Below, piece after piece: positions 7,546-26,110 of a DNA stretch of 26,978 bases (position 1 is its first letter; the number at the start of each line of letters is the position of its first letter). Source of the stretch: a virus; the IMG/VR virus record IMGVR_UViG_3300030202_001659, positions 1 through 26,978 of that record; one strand, given 5' to 3'. Under the pieces are notes generated by a model. That model made no database searches. It saw only the letters and a list, made by a program, of their open reading frames with translations, and was not told the origin of the DNA. Position numbers and translations under genes: made by a program.

Positions 7546-10500
7546 CTATACGAATTTTAACATTCCTAATATTTGATTTGCTGGAGCAAACGCTCCAGTA
7601 TACTTATACAATTTTCCTTTAAACACAAAAGTTATACCCTCTGATGGTACGACTGACTTTAAACCACCAATTGCATTTAATCTATCTAATTGAGTCTTTA
7701 ATGTGTTTAAAACTTTCGGGTCTTTTGATTTTTTTACCTTGTTTATTGCAGATTTTAAATCTTTTCTTATCTGTTGAGCTGATTTTGATGGGTTTGCTGC
7801 TATAAAGTCACTAAGATTAGACAATATTTCTGCCCCTAACTCAAAAAACAGAACTTCCCAATCTCTAATATGTTGTTTTTGTAATTTTGCGTGGTCAATT
7901 TTGTCTGTGGTTAAAATCCAGTTTAAAAATTTAGGATATTTTTCTAAATCTTTTCTAATTTGAGGAATTTTATAAGATTTATCAAAAAATGCCCATCTTT
8001 TTGTTAATTTTATAAGAATATCATTAGACGGATTCTTATAATCGGTCTGTTTTGCACCATTAAATATATATTCCATCCAATATGCTTGGTGATAATCAGA
8101 CAAAGTATCAGTATCACCTAAGTTATATTGATTTTGTAACTTTTTTAACTTACCTAAGAAGTAACTTTGTCTTTTTGAGAAGTCTTTTACTTTTGGTAAG
8201 TTAGTTATAAATGGTTTTGTGATACTATACGTCTTCTGTATATTTTGGTTTATCTGTTTTATCATACCAGCTAACATTCTAGCACTACCTCTATCCTCAC
8301 CAATAGGAGAACCAGCAGCATCGTATTCAATTGTACCATGAAATTGTAATAGTGATTTATCATAAGGTATAACATTTGCTGTTTTAGGATAAATTACTTC
8401 CAATGACATGAATTTTTTACCCTCACCAAATATTTTGTCTTTTTGTTTTTTACTTAAACCCTTTAAAGCTTTTTGTAAGTCTCTCATAGCAGATACAAAT
8501 GCATATTCTATATCACCCCTACCAGCAAACATACTTTTTATACCACTAATACTAAGAGCATTAGCACCATGATTTTTAATATGCCCTTTGTTACGAGCTG
8601 CGATAAGTTTACCATTCTTCCAACTTATCATTATATTCTGACCATCTGTTTTTTCTGTAACCGCTCCTTCACTATCAAGATTACCTTGTAATGTATTAAT
8701 AATTAGTGTCTTAAAATCTGAAAATGTAAGATTTTTATCATCGAAAGGATGGTTAAGGTGTCCATAAGCACCACCCTCTATTAGTAACTTTACCTCTTCA
8801 TTTAAATTAATTGATTCTTTTAGTTTTTTCTTTTCGGTATTACCTACGTTATCATCACCAACACCAGGTAATACAGGTGTTTCTACTGCTACACCAGTAT
8901 AACCTTTTCCATCTGGTGTAATACCCATCCATTTCACCAATTCATATCCTATATTATGTAATACAGTTCCTTCTATATAATTTTTGTAAGATTGTATTGG
9001 ATTATCTGTACCAAATCTAGTTCCATATTCACCAGATTGTTTGTGACCATATGCAACTGCAGGTACTACATTATAATTTAGAGTATAATCGAAATCTGGA
9101 TTTACAGCACCATCACTTAAAATATATTGTATGACTTCCCAACCAGTATCTCTGTACATATCATCTAACCATTTTTTAGAAAATTTCTTATAATCATTAA
9201 AACCTCTGTAAAAAGTAGGTGGGCCGTCATCAGTTGGATTTATTGCAGTAAAACTTCCCTCATTTATTATTTTTTTCAAATCAACATCTGATAAAAATCC
9301 ATCAATAGATTCAAACAATTTTCTAAATTTGTTAGTCATCATATTATAGATACCTTTATCATAGTATCCAAATACCTTTTTAAATCCTTTTACCCTTTGG
9401 TCATCCTTTACATCTGGATCTCCTAACAACTTTCTCATCATAGTTCCACTAACTTTACCAAATTGTGGAGCTGTTGTAAAGTATCCATGTGTTTCGTAAC
9501 CTTCTAAATTCTTTTTATTCTTTTCAAACTCTTGATAATAGGTTTTACCACCACTTTTTTTCTTACCACCTTTTAATCTACCAGCATCCTTTTCACCAAA
9601 AGCATAAACGACTGCTGTTGTTTTAGGATTAAATTTCTTTAAAACGTTATCAGCAACATAAGGTGTTCTTTCTTGTACAATTCTATTTTTTGGTATACCC
9701 ATTTTTACCATATGACGAACCTTTTCTTTAAAGTCCATTGGATGTCTTGGTAATTGTTTAATATTAGATGTAGTTATATAAGCTTCGTCAACTTGTTTTG
9801 CTAACCACTTGTATGTAGCTAGATGTCCACTATGAAATGGTTGAAATCTACCACCGAATATACCGATAACCTTTTTGATTTCTTTTTGTTCTATCAATCT
9901 TACATCAAATCTTTTCTTTGTCTTTTCGTCTCTGACATGAAAGATAGACTTACCTCTCTTTTTCATATGTCCTATGACTGTCCAAGCACCAGATTCTCTT
10001 TTCTTATCAAAACTTTTATTTGTTACTGTTTTTTGAACTTCTCCTATAACATCATACCCTATAAGGGCCACTGCTAAATCTCTATCAGAATCTCCTTTGA
10101 ATTTTTTTACTACTTTTTTATAATTCTTTTTAATCATAGCAGAAGCTTTCTTCGGAGACTTTCCAAGCATTACCAAAATTTTATGTATGGAATCAATTGT
10201 TTTTTTATTTTCATTTACTTTTTTATAACCACTACCATAAGGAACTGATGTGTTACCTTTCTTCTTCATCTTCTTTACCATCTTACGACTTGGTGATGGT
10301 AAGAATCCTTTAGGAGCTCCAAACTCCTCATTTTTCTTTTTGGTTTTCTTCTTCATCTTATTGATGTATGAACGATAGACAGCAGCTTGTGAAGCCTTAC
10401 CCATTTCTCTAGCTCTCTGTTCCATAGCGACAGCTGCTTGTATTTTATGAGCATGTGACCTACCACTATTTTTTATTTTAGATACAGAAGCTTTAGCATC

Positions 10501-11682
10501 TTTTACAGTAGCAAATTTCAATCCTTTGATTGTACCCTTTGGATTCTCATCAGTATACAAATCTGAATGAGACTTTGAACCACGGTGTTGTCCTTTCTTA
10601 CGAGGTACACGAGGAGCTTCTCTCATGCTACGATTTGGTTTTTTATGTAACTTTTTCATTTTTTTACGTTGAGCAAGAGATGTCGGTATCCAATCTGGCC
10701 CAAAGGTAAAGTTTTTATAACTTTCACCTTTTAGTAAACGAAATGTAGTAACCTTTTTACCATTAATAGTTGGCATACCGTGGTCATCTGTACCTATAGA
10801 TTTTACAATAACTTTTTTGTTTTTAAATCTACCTGTAAGGATAGTATCTCCTACTTTCACTGGTATCTTTATTGATTCAAAAAACTTAGATTGACCAGGA
10901 TCTTTAAATATCTTCTGATGTTTCTTTTCTCTTCTTATCCATTTTTTTGCTATTTTATTTTTTGGTGGTTTTTTAAGAAACTTATCTATTCCTTTACTAA
11001 CTAACATCTTAAAATGTTTTTTAATTTGAGCGTCTGATAACATTTTGTTGTTTTGAACAATCATAAAATTAGAACCACCAAATAAACCTTGAAAAGCACC
11101 TAAGTTAGCCTGTACATCTTCCCAACTTTTTCTTACGATACTATCGGGTACAACTCTATCTCTTTTTTCATTTCTTTCTCTAGCTATCTGTAGTGAAGTA
11201 TTTACAAAAACCATGTAGGTATCGTAACCCAAATCCATTAGTTCTTTTCTTCTTTTCTTTATTTTATCAAACTTATGACCAGTACCATCTATAATAACAC
11301 CCAACTTACCTTTTGTGTATAACCTTAATCTTTCTTGACTCAAATCCTTAGCAAATCTTCTTAATCCACTTGTATCATAGTCAACAGGTTTACCTTGTTT
11401 ATCAACACCAGTTAAATCTTGAAATAATTCATCAGGCATATTATCGATATCAGTAGTACCGAAATACTTTTTCAGTAACATCTCTAATTCAGAATCTTGG
11501 TTAACCATTTTTAGACCAGTCTTAGATACATTTATCTTTTCGGGTATACCGAATAGCTTTTGTGCTACAAAAGATTTACCACTACCAGGTCCTCCAGCTA
11601 AAAAGATAGCCTTAAAAATACCAGGATCTCTAACTCCTTCTTCTAAAAAAGGTTTTGTCAACCACTCTGTAAGTTTGTTCAT
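7546..11682 (-). CDS. Giant multi-enzyme protein: kinase, nucleotidyltransferase, ligase; candidate packaged polyprotein
   Basis: 1,378 residues. The leader MNKLTEWLTKPFLEE (1-15) looks like a capsid-targeting sequence ending in LEE/G. Residues 20-235 are a P-loop kinase of the zeta-toxin/polynucleotide-kinase type (Walker A AGGPGSGKS 29-37, IIDGTG 130-135, Arg-rich lid 168-179). A small beta domain follows (about 270-318), then two very basic segments (340-490) and a helical part (492-595). Residues 599-790 are a cytidylyltransferase/NMNAT-like domain (GGRFQPFHSGH 610-620, VSGTMMR 744-750). Residues 809-956 are unrecognised. Residues 970-1378 are a DNA/RNA-ligase-like nucleotidyltransferase (EKTDG with Lys1011 as likely nucleophile, SLEVIYP near 1093, EGITFVFKGK 1348-1357). 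[L/I]xE motifs fall at LIE/Q 596, LFE/S 789, INE/G 806, LKE/S 954, LNE/E 960 and LIE/G 967, all in linkers. It starts directly after the endolysin stop. Domain calls are firm; packaging and cleavage are inferred. Confidence 0.9.
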   Translation of the reverse strand: MNKLTEWLTKPFLEEGVRDPGIFKAIFLAGGPGSGKSFVAQKLFGIPEKINVSKTGLKMVNQDSELEMLLKKYFGTTDIDNMPDELFQDLTGVDKQGKPVDYDTSGLRRFAKDLSQERLRLYTKGKLGVIIDGTGHKFDKIKKRRKELMDLGYDTYMVFVNTSLQIARERNEKRDRVVPDSIVRKSWEDVQANLGAFQGLFGGSNFMIVQNNKMLSDAQIKKHFKMLVSKGIDKFLKKPPKNKIAKKWIRREKKHQKIFKDPGQSKFFESIKIPVKVGDTILTGRFKNKKVIVKSIGTDDHGMPTINGKKVTTFRLLKGESYKNFTFGPDWIPTSLAQRKKMKKLHKKPNRSMREAPRVPRKKGQHRGSKSHSDLYTDENPKGTIKGLKFATVKDAKASVSKIKNSGRSHAHKIQAAVAMEQRAREMGKASQAAVYRSYINKMKKKTKKKNEEFGAPKGFLPSPSRKMVKKMKKKGNTSVPYGSGYKKVNENKKTIDSIHKILVMLGKSPKKASAMIKKNYKKVVKKFKGDSDRDLAVALIGYDVIGEVQKTVTNKSFDKKRESGAWTVIGHMKKRGKSIFHVRDEKTKKRFDVRLIEQKEIKKVIGIFGGRFQPFHSGHLATYKWLAKQVDEAYITTSNIKQLPRHPMDFKEKVRHMVKMGIPKNRIVQERTPYVADNVLKKFNPKTTAVVYAFGEKDAGRLKGGKKKSGGKTYYQEFEKNKKNLEGYETHGYFTTAPQFGKVSGTMMRKLLGDPDVKDDQRVKGFKKVFGYYDKGIYNMMTNKFRKLFESIDGFLSDVDLKKIINEGSFTAINPTDDGPPTFYRGFNDYKKFSKKWLDDMYRDTGWEVIQYILSDGAVNPDFDYTLNYNVVPAVAYGHKQSGEYGTRFGTDNPIQSYKNYIEGTVLHNIGYELVKWMGITPDGKGYTGVAVETPVLPGVGDDNVGNTEKKKLKESINLNEEVKLLIEGGAYGHLNHPFDDKNLTFSDFKTLIINTLQGNLDSEGAVTEKTDGQNIMISWKNGKLIAARNKGHIKNHGANALSISGIKSMFAGRGDIEYAFVSAMRDLQKALKGLSKKQKDKIFGEGKKFMSLEVIYPKTANVIPYDKSLLQFHGTIEYDAAGSPIGEDRGSARMLAGMIKQINQNIQKTYSITKPFITNLPKVKDFSKRQSYFLGKLKKLQNQYNLGDTDTLSDYHQAYWMEYIFNGAKQTDYKNPSNDILIKLTKRWAFFDKSYKIPQIRKDLEKYPKFLNWILTTDKIDHAKLQKQHIRDWEVLFFELGAEILSNLSDFIAANPSKSAQQIRKDLKSAINKVKKSKDPKVLNTLKTQLDRLNAIGGLKSVVPSEGITFVFKGKLYKYTGAFAPANQILGMLKFV

Positions 11683-14287: not shown

Positions 14288-17200
14288 TTATGTAGTTATC
14301 TGTCCACCACCTGGTGTACTTGCTGAACTATAATCACTACTAAATCTAATCGATGGTGGTGCATCTACTGGTGGTGCTACAGTAGCTACTCCAAAACTAA
14401 ATTTACCCTGCACTGTTTCTGTTGTGTGAACAGTATTTCCGTAACCTCTTATCGAAGTTCCTGGTTCTAACTTCAATCCTCTTTTTGAATTTGATGCATT
14501 AGAATCAATACTACCCGATGTTATTGAGAATGTAGCTATCTGACCACCAGCTGCCGTAACGTTACCTGACATCGACACATTACCAGTAGCATCTATATCG
14601 AAGTTGTCTGATGCTATTATTACTTTACTTCCATCAAACTTTACATGATTACCACTATTACCTACAAAAAGTCTTGCTGTTGAGCCAGCACCCCCAACAT
14701 CTAACTGAATACCATCATTACCAAATGTCGTATTATTTATAGATATTCTTTCATTATCACCATCAAGTGTTATTGAATCCGCACCAGTACTTCTTATCAC
14801 ATCTCCTATAACTTCCCAACCAGCTATCTGACCACTTGTAGCTGTAATTTTACCAGTTATCTGAGCAGCAGAAGCTGTGATTTGACCAGTAGAACCTTTT
14901 AACTTTAATGTTGAACCAGCTGAATTAGATAAATCATCTCCGAGTGTAAATCCACCAATCTCACCACTCGTAGCAGTAACCTTACCCTGCATAGTAACAT
15001 TACCATTAGCACCGTTTAAATGAAAGTTAGATGAACTAATATGTAATTCTTCTGCACTTGGTCTACCATTTAAAAATATATATGCTTTATCTCTTCTTCC
15101 TACAAAGAAACCTGGCATCCTACTACCATCACCTCTTCTTACGATATCGATTACAACCCCAACAGAGTTTTGATTATCGAATGCAGCTAAAGATGAACTT
15201 TGAGCGTTGCTGTATCCATCAACATATAGTCTTGAGAAAGGTTGGTTTATTACTCCGTTAGCATCTTGAAGGCCTCCGGCTATTACATTTTTTGTAGCGC
15301 CTGATTCAATTATCATTTTACTTGAATTATTATTTATCTGACCTACGACACTCATCTTTGAAGATGTAGTAGGAGCATCATTTCTTATCTGTATGTAACT
15401 ACCTGAGATTTCTTCAAACTCGTAAACCATTTTCAAACTGGAGTTAGAACTTCTTCTTAGATTACCAATTGCGGATGCCATAGTTAGTCTCTGTGGTTCT
15501 CCTGCGAAACCTGATTTTGGATGTACCACATCAAAGATTTGACCAGAACCAGAAAAATCACCTGTACTATCTCCTATACTTTCTAATCTAATCATCGCTG
15601 TATTGAAACTTCCTGTAGATGGTGTTAGTATCATTCTAGAAAATCCTTGAGAATGAGCTGCTGTGGATATAAACTTCGACCTAGCACCTTGTTTTACAAT
15701 ATCAAATCCACCTATCTCTCCACTATCAGCAGTAATCTTACCACTAATATTAGCATCAGATGCAGTTATCTGATTCATCACGACATCACCATCAGGTTGT
15801 ACATGAAACTTACTAGAACTTATTTCTATGTTACCATTACTACCACTAACAAATTGTGATTGTCCACCTAAGAAAAATCTTTCTCCTAAAATATTTACCT
15901 TTGAACCACTCAAGAAAACATTGTCTGATTTCAATACAAAAGACTTTGTACTACTTCCGTCACCACCACTAACTGACTGACCAAATGATATAAGATTGTT
16001 GTCGTCTGCTTTGAATAAGAAACCACCACTAGCAGAAATAAAAGCAGTAAACTCAGAGTTATCGTAGAATCCCATATGTGGATAATTTAAATACAGACCT
16101 GCTCCAGCTGGAGACGGTGTTATATCTAAAATAGAACCACTTACATCCGTCATAATTCTTTCTGCGGTAGACGAAGATACTACATTCAAGTTTGATTGCA
16201 ACTGGATTTGTACTGCTGATGAAGAAGCAGCTGCTCCTTCTCCAATACCCACAGCGTAATTCTGTGCATTGGTCTGAGCCGCTGACGCGGATGTTGCAGC
16301 TCCTGCTCCAACCCCAACAGCGTAACTTTCAGCGTTTGACTGAGCCGCTGAAGCTGATGCAGTTGCACCAACCCCAATGTTTGTTATGTTTGTCTGTAAT
16401 GAACCAGTAGCTGATTGTAATGATGCTGTCGCTTGACCTAAACTCGTGACACTAGATTCTAATGACGCTGTTGCTTGATTTAAAGAATTTAGTGAATCAA
16501 AAGAAGCTCCACTAGTTATTGTTATTGCACCTGAAATCTTAGCAGCAGAAGCAGTTATCTGACCATTTGATTTTAGTATTAAATCATCGTTAGTAGAATT
16601 TATTTGTGTACTAGCAAGTTCAAATCCACCAATAGTACCACCATCAAATAAAACTCTAGAACCAGTTATTTGACCAGTATTACCATCTAGAATTAATGGT
16701 GAGGTTTTATCAACTGTAATTGAACCACCCATTCCACCATGTGATGAACATCTATAGTATAATTGTGTTGGTGTTGCCTGTGTGACAGCAATCTGTGTGT
16801 AAGCACCACTTGAACCAGGTGAACCATTGACAGTAACTCCTGTGGTGTAGTAATCAGTACCACCAGATGTCTGTACAAATCTTAAAGGATGATTTTCATT
16901 ACTATCATCTGCTTGGTCAAATCTGTATGTATTACCAGGTATAAATGTTAAAGAAGCTTGTGCTACTCCGTCTATTACATATTTTGAACTACCATTAACA
17001 GTTACGGTATATATAGTAGTAGTACCATCACCAGCGTCAGCTGTACTTTCGATACTATTAGATTCTATTTTCATACCACCAATTAAACCACTTGTTGCTG
17101 TTATAGCGCCAGACATTGATACTGCTGATGCTGTTATTTGTCCTAGAGCTCCTTTTAATTTCAACGTACCACTTGTAGAATCTAAATCATCACCAATTGT

Positions 17201-20200
17201 AAAACCACCTATTGTACCACCAGCTGCAGTAATCTCACCTGACATTGTGACATTACCATCTGAAGTGAGATGAAAATTAGATGAACTTATCTCTATATTT
17301 CCGTTACTACCACTTACAAACTGACTACCACCACCTAAGAAAAATCTTTCTCCAAGTATGTTTACTTTAGAACCACTAAGAAAAACGTTATCTGATTTTA
17401 ATACAAATGATTTGGTTGATGAACCATCACCACCACTAATACTTTGTCCAAAAGAAATTAAATTATTGTTATCAGCTTTAAACAAGAAACCACCACTTGC
17501 TGATATAAACGCTTTATATTCTGAATTATCTACTATATTTACTTGTCCACCCATATTAGAATGAGCAGTACAATAGTAATATAAAGTTGATGGTGTGCTT
17601 GAAGTAATTGTTATATCTACATACCCACTACCAACAGTAACACCAGTTGTGTATTGTGAACTATTACCAGAATCTGTTGAAAATCTAAATGGGTGACTAC
17701 CTACAGCAGAAGTATCAAATCTATATGTAAATCCAACTTGTAGTTCTACTGTAGCTTGTTGTACACCATCTATGTAGTACGCACCACCAGCTGCTGTTAC
17801 AGCGTATGTTTTATCTGCTGGTTCTGCACTATCGTAAAATCCTAAGTGTGGAAAATTTAAATATAATCCACTACCGACTGGTGATGGTGGTGTATCTAAT
17901 ATAGAACCAGTTGCGTCTGTCATAATCCGTAATGCAGTTGAAGATGAAACTGTGTTTAAATTTGATTGTACTGCAGAGGATGACGCTGCAGCTCCTGCTC
18001 CAACCCCAACTGCATAGTTTTGAGCATTTGTTTGTGCAGCTGATGCTGATGCTGTTGCCCCCGCCCCTACTCCAACAGCGTAACTCTCTGCATTGGATTG
18101 AGCAGCTGAAGCTGACGCTGCTGCTCCTGTTCCTACATCTGACGCATAATTTTGAGCGTTAGTCTGAGCAGCTGATGCTGAAGCTGCAGCTCCTGTTCCT
18201 ACATCTGATGCGTAATTCTGTGCGTTTGATTGAGCCGCTGAAGCTGATGCTGCAGCACCAGTACCAACATCCGAAGCATACGACTGAGCATTAGACTGGG
18301 CTGCTGAAGCTGACGCAGCAGCTCCTGTACCGACATCGCTCGCATACGACTGAGCATTAGATTGAGCCGCTGATGCTGATGCTGTTGCACCGACACCAAT
18401 ATTTGTTATATTTGTTTGTAATGAACCTGTAGCATTTTGTAAAGAAGCTGTTGCTTCCCCTAAACTCGTAACACTAGACTCCAATGAAGCTGTGGCTTGT
18501 CCTAAACTTGTGACACTAGACTCTAATGAAGCTGTGGCTTGTCCTAATGCAGTAACACCTGATTCTAAATTATTTATTGTATCAAATGAAGCTCCAGCAG
18601 TTATCGTTATAGCACCTGATATCTTAGCAGCTGAAGCTGTTATTTGTCCATTAGATTTTAGTATTAAATTATCATTAGTAGAATTTATCTGATTTGTACT
18701 TACATCAAATCCACCAATAGAAGCTGATACAAACTTTGCATAACCTTGTGAAGTAATTTGTGCTAGTGGTGAACCACCAGTAGGTGTTGAAATACTATTA
18801 GCTGATAAGTCACCTTCTATTGTTACATCAGATGTAATAATACCACCTTCTAACTTAAATTTAGAACCAGTAATACCACCATCTGCATTAAGTACAAGTG
18901 TACCATTAGAACTAGATATCTGTGTTGAACCAATATCAAAACCACCAATAGAACCTTCTGTTGCATCTACCTTTCCTACAACTATATCACCATCTGGTTT
19001 TACGTGAAACTTACTAGAACTAATTTCTATGTTACCATTACTACCACTAACAAATTGTGAACCACCACCTAAGAAGAATCTCTCTCCTAAAATATTTACA
19101 TTCGAACCACTTAAAAATACATTATCAGATTTAAGTACAAATGATTTCGTAGAAGAACCATCTCCACCACTTACAGATTGACCAAATGATATGAGGTTAT
19201 TATCATCAGCTTTGAACAAGAAACCACCACTAGCTGATATGAAAGCTTTGTATTCACTACCACTATAGTAACCCATATGTGGAAAGTTAAGAAATAATCC
19301 TTGTCCACTTGGTGATGGTGGTGTTGATAATATTGAACCACTAACATCAGTCATAATTCTTTCTGCAGTAGATGATGAAACCGTATTTAAATTACTTTGT
19401 ACCGCAGATGATGATGCAGCTGCTCCTGCTCCTATTCCAATAGCATAATTTTGTGCGTTGGTTTGAGCAGCTGACGCTGATGCCGCAGCACCAGTACCAA
19501 CATCAGATGCATAGTTTTGAGCGTTGGTTTGTGCAGCTGAAGCTGACGCAGCAGCTCCTGTTCCTATATCTGATGCGTATGTCTGTGCATTAGACTGAGC
19601 AGCAGACGCAGATGCAGTTGCTCCCACTCCTATATTTGTTATATTAGTTTGTAAAGAACCAGTTGCTGATTGTAAAGAAGCTGTTGCTTCTCCTAAACTT
19701 GAAACACTAGATTCTAAAGAACCAGTTGCTGTATTTAATGCAGCTAATTGGTCTGCTACTGCACCACCACCTGTAATATTAATAGCTCCTTCTACTGTTA
19801 AGGTACTACCATCCCAAACTAACTTATCACCCAAACTAAATTTACTACCACTATCTACATAAAATCCTGTGTTTGAGTTTCCATGTGTTCCTACACCATT
19901 ATATAACTTACCAGATTCCATATTGATACCACCTATAGAACCTGTGTTTGCTACTATTCCACCCTCTAGAAAAACATTTTGACTATATAAACCAAAACCT
20001 GCATTTGCTGGATTTGTTCCATGTAATCTGTCTGTACTCAATCCACTTAAATCACCAAGTCTAGCTTTTAAATCTACATCATAAACTCCACTACCAGTTC
20101 TCTCTACTATATCTATATAAGGCGTGGTTGTATCTGTTGGATTTGCATTTAATCTTATATAACCAGTTCCAATTCTACCTGTTGAAGCTAATACTTGACC

Positions 20201-23200
20201 AGGTGCAAGAGATTGTGATTGATTTGCATTATCACCTAAGAAATCACCACTACTTCCACTTTGATAACCACGTACAACGTAAAGTTTTCCAGCAAAATTA
20301 GTATCACTAGATGGTTCGTCTCGTGAAGCACTCTGTACTAAAATATATTCTGTTGAAAATCCAGTATCACTAATTTTCTTTGCTACTAATATTTCTCCAT
20401 CATTGTTATAACTACCTGTAAAACCTGTAGCGTTGACTACACTCATTGTAGCTGCTGATGCTGATATGTTAAGTGAACCAGTTAGTGTGGTTGAATTTGC
20501 AACATATAACTGACCACCAACTGCGTTTACACTTTCCTTTTCAAATACAGTAGTTTTTAACGTACCACGAATTGATATGTTTTCAAATTCAGCAATACCG
20601 TTGTCTGCAGAATCTAATCTGAATCCTTTTGTACCACTAGCAAAATCATTTGTTTCTATAATACCACTAGAGTTTAATGTTAAGTTGGAACCAACTATCG
20701 TATTAGAACTTAATGTCCAACCACCGATTGTACCTGATGTTGATTTTAATACACCAGCTTTAGTTACACTAAACGGAGCACTACCAAATGTAGCGTGTCC
20801 TAACTGAATACCCTCATCACCATCAGCTATAAAAATATTATTACCAGTTCCTAAAGTAACTCTTTTACCACTAGCATCTAATGTGAAGTTGGTAGCTGTT
20901 AGAGTATTACCATCTATAGTGAACCCAGCTATCTGACCACTTGTTGCAGTTACCTTTCCTGTAATCTGAGCAGCTGATGCTGTTATTTGACCACTAGCTC
21001 CTTTTAATTTTAATGTACCAGCAGTAGAACTTAAATCATCTCCTATTGTGAAACCACCGATTGTTCCACCAGCTGCAGTAATCTCACCTGACATTGTGAC
21101 ATTACCTTCTGAGGTTAAATGAAAGTTAGATGAACTTATTTCTATGTTTCCATTAGAACCACTTATGTATTGTGATGATTCTCCAAAATAAAATTTTGGT
21201 GTTTGTAATGTGATGGAACTACCACTCATATGTACTGTTGCTGCAGATATATCTAATCCAGTTCCATTAAATTTTATATGACCACCACTACCTACGACTG
21301 AAAATAATGGTGTTGAGCCTCCCGCAACTGCAAGCATTATTCCTACCTCACCATAAGCTTTATCTGGAAGAGCTACACTTGGTTGTAAACTTATAAATGG
21401 ACTATTACTATTACCTCTTATGACAACTTCTTGACTAGTTCCCAATGACATCGAAGCTTGTGTTGATGAGAATTGAACAGAACCAGCTGAATCAGTAAAC
21501 CCATCAGGTGATATGTTCCAACCAGCTATTGATTGAGTAGTTGGTCCTATATACATAATATTATCGTAATTCGAAGCAGAAATTTGTTTTATTACTTGGA
21601 TACCATATTCATTATTTGCATGTAAATTAGTAGTATCACTTAATCCACCAACTCTGACTACTTTTACTCCACCATCAACTACATCTTCATCTTTTCTATA
21701 TAACTGTAAACCCTCTCCAATATTTTTAACATTATCTTGAGTAGCTGATAAATAAACTCTTGTAATATCTTGATGTGCAGCTGAACCACTTATGGATTTA
21801 AAGATAAACCCATCAGTTATATTCCAACCAGCAATAGAAGCTGAAACAGTTGTAGCAAATCCATCTGAAGTTATAGAAGCACTTGGTGTTGGAGCAGCTG
21901 ATGGAGTATTAATTGAGTTAGCAAATACTTCACCTTGTACAGTTAGAACTCCACTATTAAATTCTAAGAAATCACCTAAACCCTTATCACCTAATAATAT
22001 ATTACTAGCAGAAACATCTCCTTCTGGTGTTAAATGAAATCCACTTGAACTTATTTCTAAATTACCATTACTTCCACTTAAAAATTGTTGTGTACCACCC
22101 ATAAAAAATTTAGGAGTTTCTATGGTAACTTGACTTCCACTTAGTGTAGTTGTTCCTGTGTTAAATATTTCTATGTTTCCACCACTACCACTTATAAAAT
22201 TAGATGCATTTCCAAAAAAGAATTTAGGTGTTAATAATGAAACCTCACTACCACTAATAGTAGCTTTTAAAGTTTTAATATTTACACCATTACTGGAATC
22301 ATATCTTAAAAAGTTTTGAGCACCATCACCAACATAGAATCTTGGAGCTCCACTATTGAATCCTAATTGGATTCCTTCATTTCCAAAGGTGTGTGAGTTT
22401 ATGGATATTTCTGCACTATTTCCGTTTCCATTAAGTCTAATTCCACCACCTGTACTCGATATATTATTACCACTTATACTCCACGCAGCAATTTTACCAC
22501 CTGTAAGTAATGCATTCGAACCTGTTATCTGTCCACTTGATTTTAGTATTAAATTATCACCTGTATCATTTATCTGAGTTGATGATAATTCAAATCCACC
22601 TATCGTTCCACCTGTAAATAATACACTAGAACCAGTAATTTGTCCACTATCTTTTAGTTGTAAAACAGAACCAACAGAAACACTAGTTGCAGAAATATCT
22701 ATACCACCTATTTGACCACCAGTTAAGTCTAATGCAGAAGCGGTTACATCACCACTAGCCTTTACGTTAAAGTTAGATGATGATATAAAAAAGTTATTTC
22801 CTGTAGATGAACCACTTATAAAAAAATTATCAGATGATAACGCTCCACCACCTATAGAAAAACCACCTAATGTACCAGCAGTTGCTGTTATTGTTCCCTG
22901 CATAGCAACATTACCACTATTATCTAAATGAAAGTTTGATGAACTGATTTCTATATTTCCATTTGAACCACTAACAAATTGACTATCACTTCCAAGATAA
23001 AATTCGGAAGAACTTATACTTGTAGTTGTACCATCAAATTTTATATGACTTCCGTTAGCATCACCTATCAATGCAGCTGGAGAATTACCTCTAAGAAATA
23101 TTCCTTTATTTGTACCATCAATACCAGTAGGTCGTGGATTACCAGCAGATATAAATCCACCATCACTTGAACTTATGAATAAATTGTTTGCAGCTAATTT

Positions 23201-26110
23201 AAAAACATCCACATCTAACTCTGCAATAGATGCAGTAACATCAAAACTATCAGATTTTATACTTACACCAGTTGCATCTGCATGTATGTAAGAATCAGCT
23301 GAACCAACTGCAAATTTAAAAGTACCATCGGTGTCTATACCAACTCTAAAACCACCAGCTAAATCACCCTTGTTAAACGTAGAACCACTACCTATTGCTA
23401 TAATCTTATTTGCACTACTCATGGTAATTGCACTATTTTCAGTACCAGAAGTTAATGAACCTGCATTGATTGTGAATCCACCAACGTCACCACTAGTAGC
23501 ACTTATTGTACCACCCAAGTCTATGTTACTTGCAGTAATATTACCCTCATGGTCTACTTTAAACTTACTAGAACTTATAAATAAATCTTCTGACGAGTTT
23601 CCTAATATTATACCCGTTGTTGATATTGTTGTACTTGCAATATCAAATCCACCTATCGTACCACCTTCTGCAGTTATCTCACCAGACATGGTTACGTTAC
23701 CTTCAGGACTTAATTCAAAATTTGAAGATGATATCTGTAAATTTCCGTTTGAACCACTAATAAAGTTTGCAGGATTTGATTCTTTTCCTAAAAAGAATTT
23801 AGAAGTTTTTATATCTAGTTGAGATGGATTAGTTCTAAATTTTAAGAAACTTTCATTTGAACCTGTTACACCATCGTGGATTTCAATACCAGCACCTTGA
23901 TAATTATCAGGTGCATTTGGTAAAACAGAACCACTAAAAATCATGAATCCACCTTGACCACCTAATGAAGCACTTTGAAATCCTTCATATCCAACTGACC
24001 TAACAAATGCAGAATTAACACCTGCCATTTCTACACCAGAATCAACTGCGTTACTTAAAAATAAAGAACCAGTTAATAGATTACCATCACCATCTATCAC
24101 TAACGCAGAACCCACTATGGGTACATCTTGAATTACTGTAACTGTTTCTGCAACATTATTATTTATATCAAAATACTCTACTAAGAAATCAAATCTATCA
24201 GGTCTAGTAGAACGAGGTATTGGTACTTTTAATTTAAATTCATCTGGTGAAAAACCTGTGTCCATCGCAGGAGTTAATGATATATCACTAATAAACCATT
24301 CACCAGATTCAACTCTCAATTGAAGAATTGTATCTGTATTTATTGTTTTATCTAATTTAAAGCTTGGTTTAAATGTATGTTCTATTGTTTCAAAATTTTG
24401 TATACCATCGATATCACTATCCAATTGTAAAACCACTGCTTCACCACTACTATCCTCTGTTAACTCAGAACCAAAAAAATTATGAGAATTTATTAGTTTG
24501 GAAGTATTTAAATTAGAACCAGAAATGTTAAAATACAATTTACCTTGTTTTTCTACATTGTTAGAATCTAATGTTTTATTAGTAGGTCTACCTTTTACTT
24601 TTGCAGTCAATGTATAAGCAACATTTTTTCGTAATGTAAATGATTTAGTTGGTTTATTTTCTACAACTACACTTTCGTTTTGTCCATGAGTAGAACCACT
24701 TATAAAAATAGAATCTATAAATTCACTACCGGTGTGTGTTGTTGCAACATTAGAACCTTTCGTAATTCCATTTACAGAAAACTTATTCCAATATGTATTT
24801 ACATGAGACTGATTTATAAAATAACCTGTTCTTAATACACCAGAAGCAGAATCTGTATCTACAAGTAATTCTGGTGATTCAACTATTACATCTGTAAGAA
24901 CAGTAAAATCACTACCCGCAGATTCACTTTTTCCATGTACCCTAACTCTATATATGTCACCTGAAAACGTTCTCATATCCTTGATAGTCAAATCTAACAA
25001 AGAATCAAAATGTATATCTGATTGAGATACTGATGTATTGGTTGAATTAAATGAAGCAGTTAATGCAGTACTAGAAAAATCTTCGAGTGTAACCTCTGTA
25101 ATATCAGTTCCTATTGGATTACTACCAGTTGGTAATGTTATTGTTGGAGGTTCTTCAGGTACGATTGTAGTGTCATTTACAACCTCTAATATTTTTGTTT
25201 TAAATTTAGGTACTGTTACTGTTTCTTCGATTAATTTATTAGTGATAGTATCTAATTTTGTAATTGTAACTTGTCTCTCAGGTATTTCAACATCACCACC
25301 TTGCATGTCTGCAGTAAATAAAGGTGTACCTGATTTTATTACAAACTTAGGTTCTTCTTTAGAAGCATAAACTGTAGACAATCCCCTTCGTCTTATTATA
25401 GATGGTACTTTACCTCTCAATCCAGTCTTATACTTGTATTCATCTTTAAATCTTCTTAAATCTTTAAACGTATCAGAAACTTCACTAGGTAACGCTTCTT
25501 TTTCTAAACTACCAGTTTCAATTGGTATTATTTTTCCTTTTAAATCTCCACGAGCAAAACCATCAGCTGTACCAGTTACTATGGATTGACTTATTGCAGT
25601 TAATGCTGTTTTTGCTTGTACGACTTCTTGAAATTCAGTAGTTGGGTTTTTGAAAAATCTTATTGGTTGTGTATTTACTACTGTTGATAAATCTACATTA
25701 ATAGTTTTTGTATATCTTACATTATATGCATTTTGAAATTCAATAGGCACATCAACAACATCAGGATTTGCTTCACCTAATATTGTTAATGTTGCTAAAC
25801 CACCATAATTAACTGGTGGTGAATAAACTTCTATCGTAACGTATCTATAAGGTACATATGGTGGTGTTTCTTCACCAACAAAATCAACAGGTGATAAATA
25901 TATTGTATTACCTTCAGAGTCAATTAACTCTAACTTTAACTCTATACCATTTCTTAAAAAATCAGAGCCAAATATCTTAAATGCATATCTTCCCTGCGTT
26001 ATTGTCTCAGGTACTTCTTGTACATTAAAATATTCGTTATTTGTATCTTCAATAAAGACACTAACTTGGTCTAAGTTTTGTAGTGTTAATCGTTTAGGTA
26101 AAAATCCCAT
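14288..26110 (-). CDS. Giant repetitive tail fibre-like protein with embedded cupredoxin-like domains
   Basis: 3,940 residues. An Ig-like, non-repetitive N-terminal part (about 1-800) is followed by about twenty modules with the core G-x-I-G-G-F/W-x-I, each coupled to pieces like SGSNGNIEISSSNFHL and GQITAS. Three large internal repeats each hold a coiled-coil stretch (SLESSVTSLGQATA), an array of 22-residue Ala-rich units, a shared LNFPHMG...SEYKAFISASGGFLF block and ILGERFFLGG. Two copper-protein-like domains lie near residues 2765-2861 and 3024-3135. No transmembrane segment or S74 chaperone domain is visible; the end is TPGGGQITT. Composition suggests a long trimeric beta/coiled-coil fibre that makes host contact. 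An AAGGA site lies 11 nt before the ATG, a longer spacing than usual. The exact role (long fibre, whisker or tip) is not decidable here. Confidence 0.88.
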   Translation of the reverse strand: MGFLPKRLTLQNLDQVSVFIEDTNNEYFNVQEVPETITQGRYAFKIFGSDFLRNGIELKLELIDSEGNTIYLSPVDFVGEETPPYVPYRYVTIEVYSPPVNYGGLATLTILGEANPDVVDVPIEFQNAYNVRYTKTINVDLSTVVNTQPIRFFKNPTTEFQEVVQAKTALTAISQSIVTGTADGFARGDLKGKIIPIETGSLEKEALPSEVSDTFKDLRRFKDEYKYKTGLRGKVPSIIRRRGLSTVYASKEEPKFVIKSGTPLFTADMQGGDVEIPERQVTITKLDTITNKLIEETVTVPKFKTKILEVVNDTTIVPEEPPTITLPTGSNPIGTDITEVTLEDFSSTALTASFNSTNTSVSQSDIHFDSLLDLTIKDMRTFSGDIYRVRVHGKSESAGSDFTVLTDVIVESPELLVDTDSASGVLRTGYFINQSHVNTYWNKFSVNGITKGSNVATTHTGSEFIDSIFISGSTHGQNESVVVENKPTKSFTLRKNVAYTLTAKVKGRPTNKTLDSNNVEKQGKLYFNISGSNLNTSKLINSHNFFGSELTEDSSGEAVVLQLDSDIDGIQNFETIEHTFKPSFKLDKTINTDTILQLRVESGEWFISDISLTPAMDTGFSPDEFKLKVPIPRSTRPDRFDFLVEYFDINNNVAETVTVIQDVPIVGSALVIDGDGNLLTGSLFLSNAVDSGVEMAGVNSAFVRSVGYEGFQSASLGGQGGFMIFSGSVLPNAPDNYQGAGIEIHDGVTGSNESFLKFRTNPSQLDIKTSKFFLGKESNPANFISGSNGNLQISSSNFELSPEGNVTMSGEITAEGGTIGGFDIASTTISTTGIILGNSSEDLFISSSKFKVDHEGNITASNIDLGGTISATSGDVGGFTINAGSLTSGTENSAITMSSANKIIAIGSGSTFNKGDLAGGFRVGIDTDGTFKFAVGSADSYIHADATGVSIKSDSFDVTASIAELDVDVFKLAANNLFISSSDGGFISAGNPRPTGIDGTNKGIFLRGNSPAALIGDANGSHIKFDGTTTSISSSEFYLGSDSQFVSGSNGNIEISSSNFHLDNSGNVAMQGTITATAGTLGGFSIGGGALSSDNFFISGSSTGNNFFISSSNFNVKASGDVTASALDLTGGQIGGIDISATSVSVGSVLQLKDSGQITGSSVLFTGGTIGGFELSSTQINDTGDNLILKSSGQITGSNALLTGGKIAAWSISGNNISSTGGGIRLNGNGNSAEISINSHTFGNEGIQLGFNSGAPRFYVGDGAQNFLRYDSSNGVNIKTLKATISGSEVSLLTPKFFFGNASNFISGSGGNIEIFNTGTTTLSGSQVTIETPKFFMGGTQQFLSGSNGNLEISSSGFHLTPEGDVSASNILLGDKGLGDFLEFNSGVLTVQGEVFANSINTPSAAPTPSASITSDGFATTVSASIAGWNITDGFIFKSISGSAAHQDITRVYLSATQDNVKNIGEGLQLYRKDEDVVDGGVKVVRVGGLSDTTNLHANNEYGIQVIKQISASNYDNIMYIGPTTQSIAGWNISPDGFTDSAGSVQFSSTQASMSLGTSQEVVIRGNSNSPFISLQPSVALPDKAYGEVGIMLAVAGGSTPLFSVVGSGGHIKFNGTGLDISAATVHMSGSSITLQTPKFYFGESSQYISGSNGNIEISSSNFHLTSEGNVTMSGEITAAGGTIGGFTIGDDLSSTAGTLKLKGASGQITASAAQITGKVTATSGQIAGFTIDGNTLTATNFTLDASGKRVTLGTGNNIFIADGDEGIQLGHATFGSAPFSVTKAGVLKSTSGTIGGWTLSSNTIVGSNLTLNSSGIIETNDFASGTKGFRLDSADNGIAEFENISIRGTLKTTVFEKESVNAVGGQLYVANSTTLTGSLNISASAATMSVVNATGFTGSYNNDGEILVAKKISDTGFSTEYILVQSASRDEPSSDTNFAGKLYVVRGYQSGSSGDFLGDNANQSQSLAPGQVLASTGRIGTGYIRLNANPTDTTTPYIDIVERTGSGVYDVDLKARLGDLSGLSTDRLHGTNPANAGFGLYSQNVFLEGGIVANTGSIGGINMESGKLYNGVGTHGNSNTGFYVDSGSKFSLGDKLVWDGSTLTVEGAINITGGGAVADQLAALNTATGSLESSVSSLGEATASLQSATGSLQTNITNIGVGATASASAAQSNAQTYASDIGTGAAASASAAQTNAQNYASDVGTGAAASASAAQTNAQNYAIGIGAGAAASSSAVQSNLNTVSSSTAERIMTDVSGSILSTPPSPSGQGLFLNFPHMGYYSGSEYKAFISASGGFLFKADDNNLISFGQSVSGGDGSSTKSFVLKSDNVFLSGSNVNILGERFFLGGGSQFVSGSNGNIEISSSKFHVKPDGDIVVGKVDATEGSIGGFDIGSTQISSSNGTLVLNADGGITGSKFKLEGGIITSDVTIEGDLSANSISTPTGGSPLAQITSQGYAKFVSASIGGFDVSTNQINSTNDNLILKSNGQITASAAKISGAITITAGASFDTINNLESGVTALGQATASLESSVTSLGQATASLESSVTSLGEATASLQNATGSLQTNITNIGVGATASASAAQSNAQSYASDVGTGAAASASAAQSNAQSYASDVGTGAAASASAAQSNAQNYASDVGTGAAASASAAQTNAQNYASDVGTGAAASASAAQSNAESYAVGVGAGATASASAAQTNAQNYAVGVGAGAAASSSAVQSNLNTVSSSTALRIMTDATGSILDTPPSPVGSGLYLNFPHLGFYDSAEPADKTYAVTAAGGAYYIDGVQQATVELQVGFTYRFDTSAVGSHPFRFSTDSGNSSQYTTGVTVGSGYVDITITSSTPSTLYYYCTAHSNMGGQVNIVDNSEYKAFISASGGFLFKADNNNLISFGQSISGGDGSSTKSFVLKSDNVFLSGSKVNILGERFFLGGGSQFVSGSNGNIEISSSNFHLTSDGNVTMSGEITAAGGTIGGFTIGDDLDSTSGTLKLKGALGQITASAVSMSGAITATSGLIGGMKIESNSIESTADAGDGTTTIYTVTVNGSSKYVIDGVAQASLTFIPGNTYRFDQADDSNENHPLRFVQTSGGTDYYTTGVTVNGSPGSSGAYTQIAVTQATPTQLYYRCSSHGGMGGSITVDKTSPLILDGNTGQITGSRVLFDGGTIGGFELASTQINSTNDDLILKSNGQITASAAKISGAITITSGASFDSLNSLNQATASLESSVTSLGQATASLQSATGSLQTNITNIGVGATASASAAQSNAESYAVGVGAGAATSASAAQTNAQNYAVGIGEGAAASSSAVQIQLQSNLNVVSSSTAERIMTDVSGSILDITPSPAGAGLYLNYPHMGFYDNSEFTAFISASGGFLFKADDNNLISFGQSVSGGDGSSTKSFVLKSDNVFLSGSKVNILGERFFLGGQSQFVSGSNGNIEISSSKFHVQPDGDVVMNQITASDANISGKITADSGEIGGFDIVKQGARSKFISTAAHSQGFSRMILTPSTGSFNTAMIRLESIGDSTGDFSGSGQIFDVVHPKSGFAGEPQRLTMASAIGNLRRSSNSSLKMVYEFEEISGSYIQIRNDAPTTSSKMSVVGQINNNSSKMIIESGATKNVIAGGLQDANGVINQPFSRLYVDGYSNAQSSSLAAFDNQNSVGVVIDIVRRGDGSRMPGFFVGRRDKAYIFLNGRPSAEELHISSSNFHLNGANGNVTMQGKVTATSGEIGGFTLGDDLSNSAGSTLKLKGSTGQITASAAQITGKITATSGQIAGWEVIGDVIRSTGADSITLDGDNERISINNTTFGNDGIQLDVGGAGSTARLFVGNSGNHVKFDGSKVIIASDNFDIDATGNVSMSGNVTAAGGQIATFSITSGSIDSNASNSKRGLKLEPGTSIRGYGNTVHTTETVQGKFSFGVATVAPPVDAPPSIRFSSDYSSASTPGGGQITT
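15795..16500 (-). repeat. Macro-repeat copy 3 of the giant fibre
   Basis: Third copy in protein order. It contains the coiled-coil stretch, three 22-residue Ala-rich units (16205-16378), the LNYPHMGFYDNSEF block and FFLGGQSQF. It runs straight from YDNSE to FTAFISAS with no inserted domain. Copy boundaries are approximate. Confidence 0.75.
16205..16378 (-). repeat. Ala-rich 22-residue array, 3 units
   Basis: Units of the type GVGAGAATSASAAQTNAQNYAV, 66 nt each. The last unit in protein order ends in ASSSAVQ followed by an extra IQLQ. This is the shortest of the three arrays. The heptad-like Ala/Gln pattern suggests a tight trimeric coiled coil. Confidence 0.8.
16708..17042 (-). other. Cupredoxin-like domain 2 within the giant fibre
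   Basis: About 110 residues reading TVTVNGSSKYVIDG...NTYRFDQ...NHPLRFV...LYYRCSSHGGMGGSITV. Candidate type-1 copper ligands are His (16889-16891), Cys (16748-16750), His (16739-16741) and Met (16730-16732). The C-x2-H-x2-M spacing is that of amicyanin-type cupredoxins. Copper binding is inferred from the ligand pattern. Confidence 0.65.
17530..17818 (-). other. Cupredoxin-like domain 1 within the giant fibre
   Basis: About 95 residues reading TYAVTAAGGAYYIDGVQQ...FTYRFDTSAVGSHPFRFS...LYYYCTAHSNMGGQVNIV. Candidate copper ligands are His (17693-17695), Cys (17570-17572), His (17561-17563) and Met (17552-17554), again C-x2-H-x2-M. The beta-sandwich pattern and ligand order match plastocyanin/amicyanin-type folds. 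Confidence 0.65.
17968..18399 (-). repeat. Ala-rich 22-residue array, 7 units
   Basis: Seven units of the type GTGAAASASAAQSNAQNYASDV, 66 nt each. Amino-acid identity between units is very high, but codons differ at many positions, including switches between TCN and AGY serine codons. Confidence 0.85.
18995..19740 (-). repeat. Macro-repeat copy 1 of the giant fibre
   Basis: First copy in protein order: coiled-coil SLESSVSSLGEATASLQSAT, four Ala-rich units, then LNFPHMGYYSGSEYKAFISAS with no insertion, and ILGERFFLGGGSQF. Boundaries are approximate. Confidence 0.75.
19400..19632 (-). repeat. Ala-rich 22-residue array, 4 units
   Basis: Four units of the same 66 nt type, from GVGATASASAAQ to ASSSAVQ. 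It follows the coiled-coil stretch as in the other two macro-repeats. Confidence 0.8.

Follow-up and report, generated by a model that had tools for sequence, protein, structure and literature searches.

In this study we asked what two cupredoxin-like domains are doing inside a giant fibre-like protein of a marine phage, and whether they could hold copper. The stretch analysed, called the window below, is the 26,978-base virus record IMGVR_UViG_3300030202_001659 of the IMG/VR database. Its largest open reading frame (ORF) encodes 3940 amino acids and matches the PHROG family phrog_30742, 'tail fiber protein', with an E value of 6.1e-41. A first-pass annotation, made from the sequence of the window, had placed two domains with complete copper ligand sets in this protein; we call them D1 and D2, and each is about 105 residues long. 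We find that the domain is real, conserved and widespread, while its copper and its function are predictions.

Ligand sets and predicted fold

The two ligand sets described in the first-pass annotation are all present in the sequence. Each domain has a C-x2-H-x2-M motif (CTAHSNM in D1 and CSSHGGM in D2) which is accompanied by an upstream His-Pro, and the spacing of the motif is indeed that of amicyanin loops (Table 1). The interval given for the pair, 16708-17818, covers both domains, but it also takes in about 160 residues of ordinary fibre between them. The whole protein contains 38 His, 37 Met and just 2 Cys, and both Cys lie inside the motifs. When the residues of the ORF were shuffled 20,000 times, at least one C-x2-H-x2-M was found in 5 shuffles and two were found in none. 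This result and the conservation of the ligands described below rule out a chance motif. With a single Cys per domain an intradomain disulfide can be ruled out as well.

The fold expected for the two domains is recovered by structure prediction. The AlphaFold model of D2, built with a 67-row alignment, has a mean predicted local distance difference test score (pLDDT) of 95.3 and a predicted template modelling score of 0.88. D1 was folded within its fibre context and reaches block means of pLDDT 90-98 over approximately residues 30-130 of the segment, with flanks at or below 57. The boundaries of the two domains were taken from alignment and model, and for D1 the fall of the pLDDT on its flanks marks the ends. 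In the D2 model C94 closes the strand 89-94, the motif loop is followed by the strand 101-106 and H47 stands directly ahead of the strand 49-52. Judged from strand and loop positions alone, this modelled placing fits the cupredoxin arrangement.

Structure comparisons with the PDB are led by cupredoxins. At E<=1e-3 Foldseek gave 11 matches for D2 and 32 for D1, and rusticyanin was the top match for both (6e-5 and 1.1e-4). Plastocyanins are near the top of the D1 list, and the next rows for the two domains are plastocyanin, AcoP, pseudoazurin, amicyanin and multicopper enzymes. The D2 list includes AcoP, a pseudoazurin with an amicyanin loop, amicyanin itself (1sfd) and the engineered loops 2ux6 and 3fs9. 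In VIA-align the N-terminal cupredoxin domain of the Hyphomicrobium nitrite reductase (2dv6_A) came first, both for D2 (Z 9.8, root mean square deviation 2.5, 98 residues aligned) and for D1 (Z 10.1, 2.1, 89 aligned), and for each domain all 50 rows among the matches listed are copper proteins. We consider it very probable that D1 and D2 are cupredoxin domains.

Rusticyanin and the 2dv6 domain, the best structural matches, are nevertheless distant from D1 and D2, with an identity of 13-18% in the matched rows, and they are enzymes or electron carriers whereas D1 and D2 are virion parts. The amicyanin-type cupredoxins (1sfd; 2ux6, 3fs9) have the fold and the C-x2-H-x2-M spacing in common with D1 and D2, but they carry His-Asn in place of His-Pro and are not part of a virion protein. 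Small 'beta-sandwich proteins' from Marseillevirus and Pithovirus records in BFVD (A0A481YVH3, A0A481Z7Q7, A0A481Z6J5) also match the D2 fold, at about 1e-6.

As the nearest folds are electron-transfer cupredoxins, one might suppose that the domains transfer electrons or carry out redox chemistry on the cell surface. We regard this as extremely improbable: among the window ORFs scanned none showed a recognisable redox partner domain, a lone site within a fibre offers no obvious route for electrons, and copies of the domain persist that have no ligands.

Table 1. Positions of the fibre-like ORF, its two cupredoxin-like domains, their putative ligands and the empty modules in the window.
Feature	Position	Strand	Basis
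Giant fibre-like ORF, carrier of D1 and D2	14288..26110	-	ORF translation; PHROG phrog_30742
D1 cupredoxin-like domain, fibre residues 2764-2865	17516..17821	-	AlphaFold model, PDB cupredoxin matches
D1 upstream ligand H2806 (SHPFRF)	17693..17695	-	Sequence; invariant in 67-copy alignment A3
D1 C-x2-H-x2-M, CTAHSNM (C2847, H2850, M2853)	17552..17572	-	Sequence; invariant in A3
D2 cupredoxin-like domain, fibre residues 3028-3138	16697..17029	-	AlphaFold model (pLDDT 95.3), PDB cupredoxin matches
D2 upstream ligand H3074 (NHPLRF)	16889..16891	-	Sequence; invariant in A3
D2 C-x2-H-x2-M, CSSHGGM (C3121, H3124, M3127)	16730..16750	-	Sequence; invariant in A3
D1-type module without domain (GLFLNFPHMGYYSG-SEYKAFISASGG), natural empty site, residues 2271-2311	19178..19300	-	Coordinates derived from residue positions
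Second empty D1-type module (GLYLNYPHMGFYDN-SEFTAFISASGG), residues 3338-3378	15977..16099	-	Coordinates derived from residue positions

Insertion in repeated fibre modules

As read from the sequence, D1 and D2 are inserts (loops) in repeated fibre modules. The module that carries D1 is also present twice without the domain in the same fibre, near residues 2276 and 3343, and D2 is likewise placed within a GGFEL-type repeat. Three copies are present in a related fibre, L003, two of the D1 type and one of the D2 type, and the only 3 Cys in the 2794 visible residues of L003 are all motif Cys. Cys poverty is thus a trait of the window fibre and L003, but it fails as a general mark of the carriers: among virion ORFs of at least 400 residues with the motif, 88 of 173 have no further Cys (contigs L094-L129 left out).

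Elsewhere in the window ORF, residues 2529-2721 consist of Ala-rich repeats (ASASAAQTNAQNYA), for which an Apolipoprotein model gives E 3e-10, under its cut-off. These repeats probably form a coiled coil between fibre modules.

Conservation and loss of the ligands

Conservation of the ligands across homologues, on which the cupredoxin reading of the first-pass annotation had been made to depend, is high. We aligned 67 copies (alignment A3), namely the two window domains and 65 representatives, one per cluster of about 80% identity; L179, which is cut at a contig end, was excluded. Six columns are invariant in 67 of 67 copies, H47, P48, Y92, C94, H97 and M100, and four of these six are the ligands. 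The pattern behind our IMG/VR scan contained C and H and that behind the GTDB scan C, H and M, and because of this selection bias we also ran scans whose N-terminal patterns leave out C, H and M. Of the 52 distinct copies in the 80 loci obtained in this way, 51 have the complete set and the other is gapped at H and M. A ligand-masked profile gave 162 distinct copies in 189 loci, and here the upstream His is present in 162 of 162, Cys in 161, the second His in 160 and Met in 160; copies that are not complete have a gap at the ligand column. Before the counts of 162 and 52, identical copies were dropped, as was L002, which overlaps L001. Every scan retains its 80 best matches, which leaves distant copies under-represented.

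Loss of the ligands can be seen when the set is widened to 286 distinct copies, taken from 291 loci and including scans built on gp9 and on a protein of cyanophage PSS2. For this set only identical copies were dropped, and the window copies seen in L001 and L002 were counted once. The ligands are His-Cys-His-Met in 237 of the 286 copies and His-Cys-His-Gln in five, one copy has C-x2-H-x3-M and 43 are without the motif. When inspected by eye, about 11 of these 43 appear cut or split, L279 reads C-x4-H-x2-M, and the motif is gone from about 31. Approximately 24 of the lost copies resemble a single domain encoded in the gene that follows gp9, and another four are the small protein of the PSS2 type. 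A few of them retain the upstream His and one (L195) a Cys, and C, H and M are gone together while the domain sequence is recognisable. In most cases, then, the ligand set is retained, takes Gln at the axial place or disappears as a whole, and its members do not drift singly.

The gene downstream of gp9 encodes a virion protein with copies of several ligand states. Five copies in it (L255, L257, L286, L289, L290) read CHYHTGQ, with Gln in the axial place, and the copy of S-ShM2 retains CYNHANM. His-Cys-His-Gln is the ligand set of stellacyanin, which shares the axial Gln with these five cyanophage copies, whereas the window copies have Met; the loop spacing of stellacyanin differs from C-x2-H-x2-Q. 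In the cyanophage PSS2 type (L190, L200-L203) the domain is a stand-alone protein of about 112 residues, with a recognisable domain sequence and without the ligand set.

A possible explanation is that the cupredoxin fold serves as a structural brick, a spacer or stiffener of the fibre in which the metal, if any, merely stabilises the fold. Copies without C, H and M do persist in or beside virion proteins, such as the PSS2 protein and the domain of the gene after gp9, and both D1 and D2 are inserts in repeats. However, the ligands make up most of the few invariant columns of A3, and in the wider set they are mostly kept or lost as a group and do not drift singly; ligands held so strictly would be unexpected in a plain spacer. 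We find this explanation rather doubtful, and at the same time the ligand-free copies suggest that part of the role needs no metal.

Distribution and origin

The first-pass annotation had suspected similar domains in other marine phages, and a large number of relatives bears this out. We searched 50,697 phage records by tblastn (E<=1e-3) and found D2 in 60 of them and D1 in 354. By their names the carriers are Synechococcus, Prochlorococcus and other cyanophages, Pelagibacter and Methylophilales phages and marine viruses; the exceptions are one uncultured fosmid phage per search and, for D2, also one unnamed seawater phage. At E<=0.01 the number of records for D1 rises to 376, and 375 of them have cyanophage, Pelagibacter, Methylophilales or marine virus names, the remaining one being an uncultured fosmid phage. 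The domain is found in culturable isolates, namely P-SSM2, P-SSM4, S-ShM2, Melnitz and HTVC028P. The IMG/VR pattern scan adds at least 581 relatives among the 600 stretches listed, and in GTDB contigs relatives were found in 36 of 47 pattern-matched stretches, many of which resemble phage pieces. A plasmid collection gave no domain match. For many cyanophages the matching region is the C-terminal domain of the baseplate wedge-tail fibre connector, gp9, and taken together the settings of the domain are fibres, gp9 and other baseplate or virion proteins.

Copies with the full ligand set can also be read in cellular-looking lipoproteins (L112 of SAR86, L106 and L107) and in large proteins of marine bacteria that look extracellular (L096, L103, L120 and L127).

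Portal, prohead protease and terminase mark the window phage as T4-like, and the nearest terminases are those of Microcystis phage Mel-JY01 and Flavobacterium phage immuto. A hidden Markov model search of stretches of immuto (41.6 kb), Mel-JY01 (37.4 kb) and LR756508 (49.9 kb) found no domain, and no Flavobacterium or Microcystis name appears among the tblastn carriers of D1 or D2. Ancestral presence in the lineage of the window phage is therefore unsupported. The two window domains do not form a pair in a tree of 76 copies; D1 groups with its own L003 counterpart and D2 likewise with its own (support 100), and most inner forks of this tree are unresolved. We read these results as a mobile module that was gained laterally.

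Among the other genes of the window, the minus strand at 7546-11682 has a multi-domain ORF of 1378 residues with an N-terminal AAA_33/zeta-toxin-like kinase domain and a central cytidylyltransferase-like domain. In the related phage immuto, an ORF annotated as NadR lies upstream of the terminase.

Metal and role on the virion

In the explanation that we favour, each domain would hold a single copper ion with its His, Cys, His and Met ligands, and copper binding of D1 and D2 is strongly predicted. The domain would sit exposed on the particle as an accessory module, a compact beta-sandwich which the bound metal would hold rigid and which would make weak contacts with the host surface. D1 and D2 belong to a family which marine phages share among their virion proteins (fibres, gp9 and other baseplate proteins). 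Weak host-surface contacts have been proposed for phage Ig-like domains, and these decoration domains are likewise mobile beta-sandwiches, inserted into a wide variety of virion proteins, but they have no metal site. The first-pass annotation had suggested stability, adhesion to a metal-containing receptor or redox chemistry as possible functions. We lean towards copper as the native metal, and we offer contact with the host surface as a tentative role. For the reading as a whole, cupredoxin inserts with copper and an accessory role at the virion surface, the role taken loosely, we estimate a probability of about one half.

Several observations weigh against this reading. The Pfam family PF00127 (Copper-bind, plastocyanin/azurin) scores D1 at E 0.068 and 14 bits, with a cut-off of 21.2, and D2 matches no copper family; no model of Pfam or NCBIfam picks out either window copy as a copper domain. 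Foldseek also lists a semaphorin beta-sandwich, a non-cupredoxin fold, for D2 (E 3.8e-3). Phage proteins acquire their fold in the cytoplasm of the host, a compartment that holds little free copper. In the HMMER alignment the invariant Pro after the first His stands where plastocyanin has Asn, and His-Pro in place of His-Asn would remove the usual backbone hydrogen bond to Cys; with this bond lost, both the colour and the potential of the site may be out of the ordinary. And the ligand-free copies, about 31 of 286 by eye, are kept in virion proteins of some phages.

The sequence models give a similar picture for the relatives. PF00127 is reached at E<=0.01 by 3 of the 67 aligned relatives, and the amicyanin model TIGR02657 matches one of the 67 at this threshold (E 3.4e-6) and D2 not at all. 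Neither of these two models places the window domains in the amicyanin or plastocyanin family, and the domain family is unnamed in the libraries searched. The profile of phrog_30742 does match each domain (E 1.2e-20 for D1 and 3.5e-31 for D2), and the part of the ORF that scores best with it, residues 2942-3134, is D2 with its flank. Against PDB sequences, phmmer with D2 finds plastocyanin at E 0.62 or worse and the A3 profile finds pseudoazurin at E 0.0071; the C and H of the domain line up with those of pseudoazurin and plastocyanin in the HMMER alignment.

The place of synthesis also raises the question whether a type-1-like site would natively hold zinc or another metal, acquired in the host cytoplasm. 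Virion proteins are made there, azurin-type proteins made there are known to pick up zinc, and the single Cys per domain leaves no intradomain disulfide. Yet Cys with two His and Met or Gln is a copper set, and Met is a poor zinc ligand. We think a native zinc site unlikely.

Metal sites as such are not foreign to phage fibres. In excerpts of PMC11705849, iron is described at HxH sites in the fibres of T4 (gp37) and alterophage R22Y, and a Trojan-horse role is proposed. As in the prediction for D1 and D2, the metal sites are in fibres, but in these excerpts the iron is octahedral and there is no cupredoxin fold. By analogy, the loaded domain might be a copper Trojan horse, a metal decoy that docks on a metal receptor of the host outer membrane. 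The iron sites and the names of the D1-matched phage records given above are in favour of a decoy. Against it, the domain is also found beyond fibres, in gp9 and other baseplate proteins, no receptor is known, and D1 and D2 are internal in the fibre sequence, away from its end. We judge a decoy very unlikely.

We found no paper that describes a cupredoxin domain on phage virions in open-access full texts, subscription papers and most preprints being outside the scope of this search. In the excerpts of PMC9004378 and PMC10436341, copper is mentioned only for electron microscopy grids, and in that of PMC10436341 plastocyanin is listed only as the gene petE. What is new here is the phage lineage and the setting, as the fold was already known.

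Significance

A more far-reaching view would be that metal-loaded blue-copper-type domains are general on the virions of marine tailed phages, laterally swapped and with the metal face docking on the host outer membrane. We hold this to be improbable, but if it were true, released virions would make up a store of tightly bound copper in the ocean that has so far gone unrecognised. Returning to the reading that we favour, if the sites hold copper, a widespread and unnamed domain of marine phage particles would be a metalloprotein, and it would be one carried by culturable isolates. The role of metals in phage adsorption would then be testable by inductively coupled plasma mass spectrometry and single-residue mutants, with the natural ligand-free and Gln variants serving as controls. 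The idea of iron in phage fibres would in that case extend to copper.

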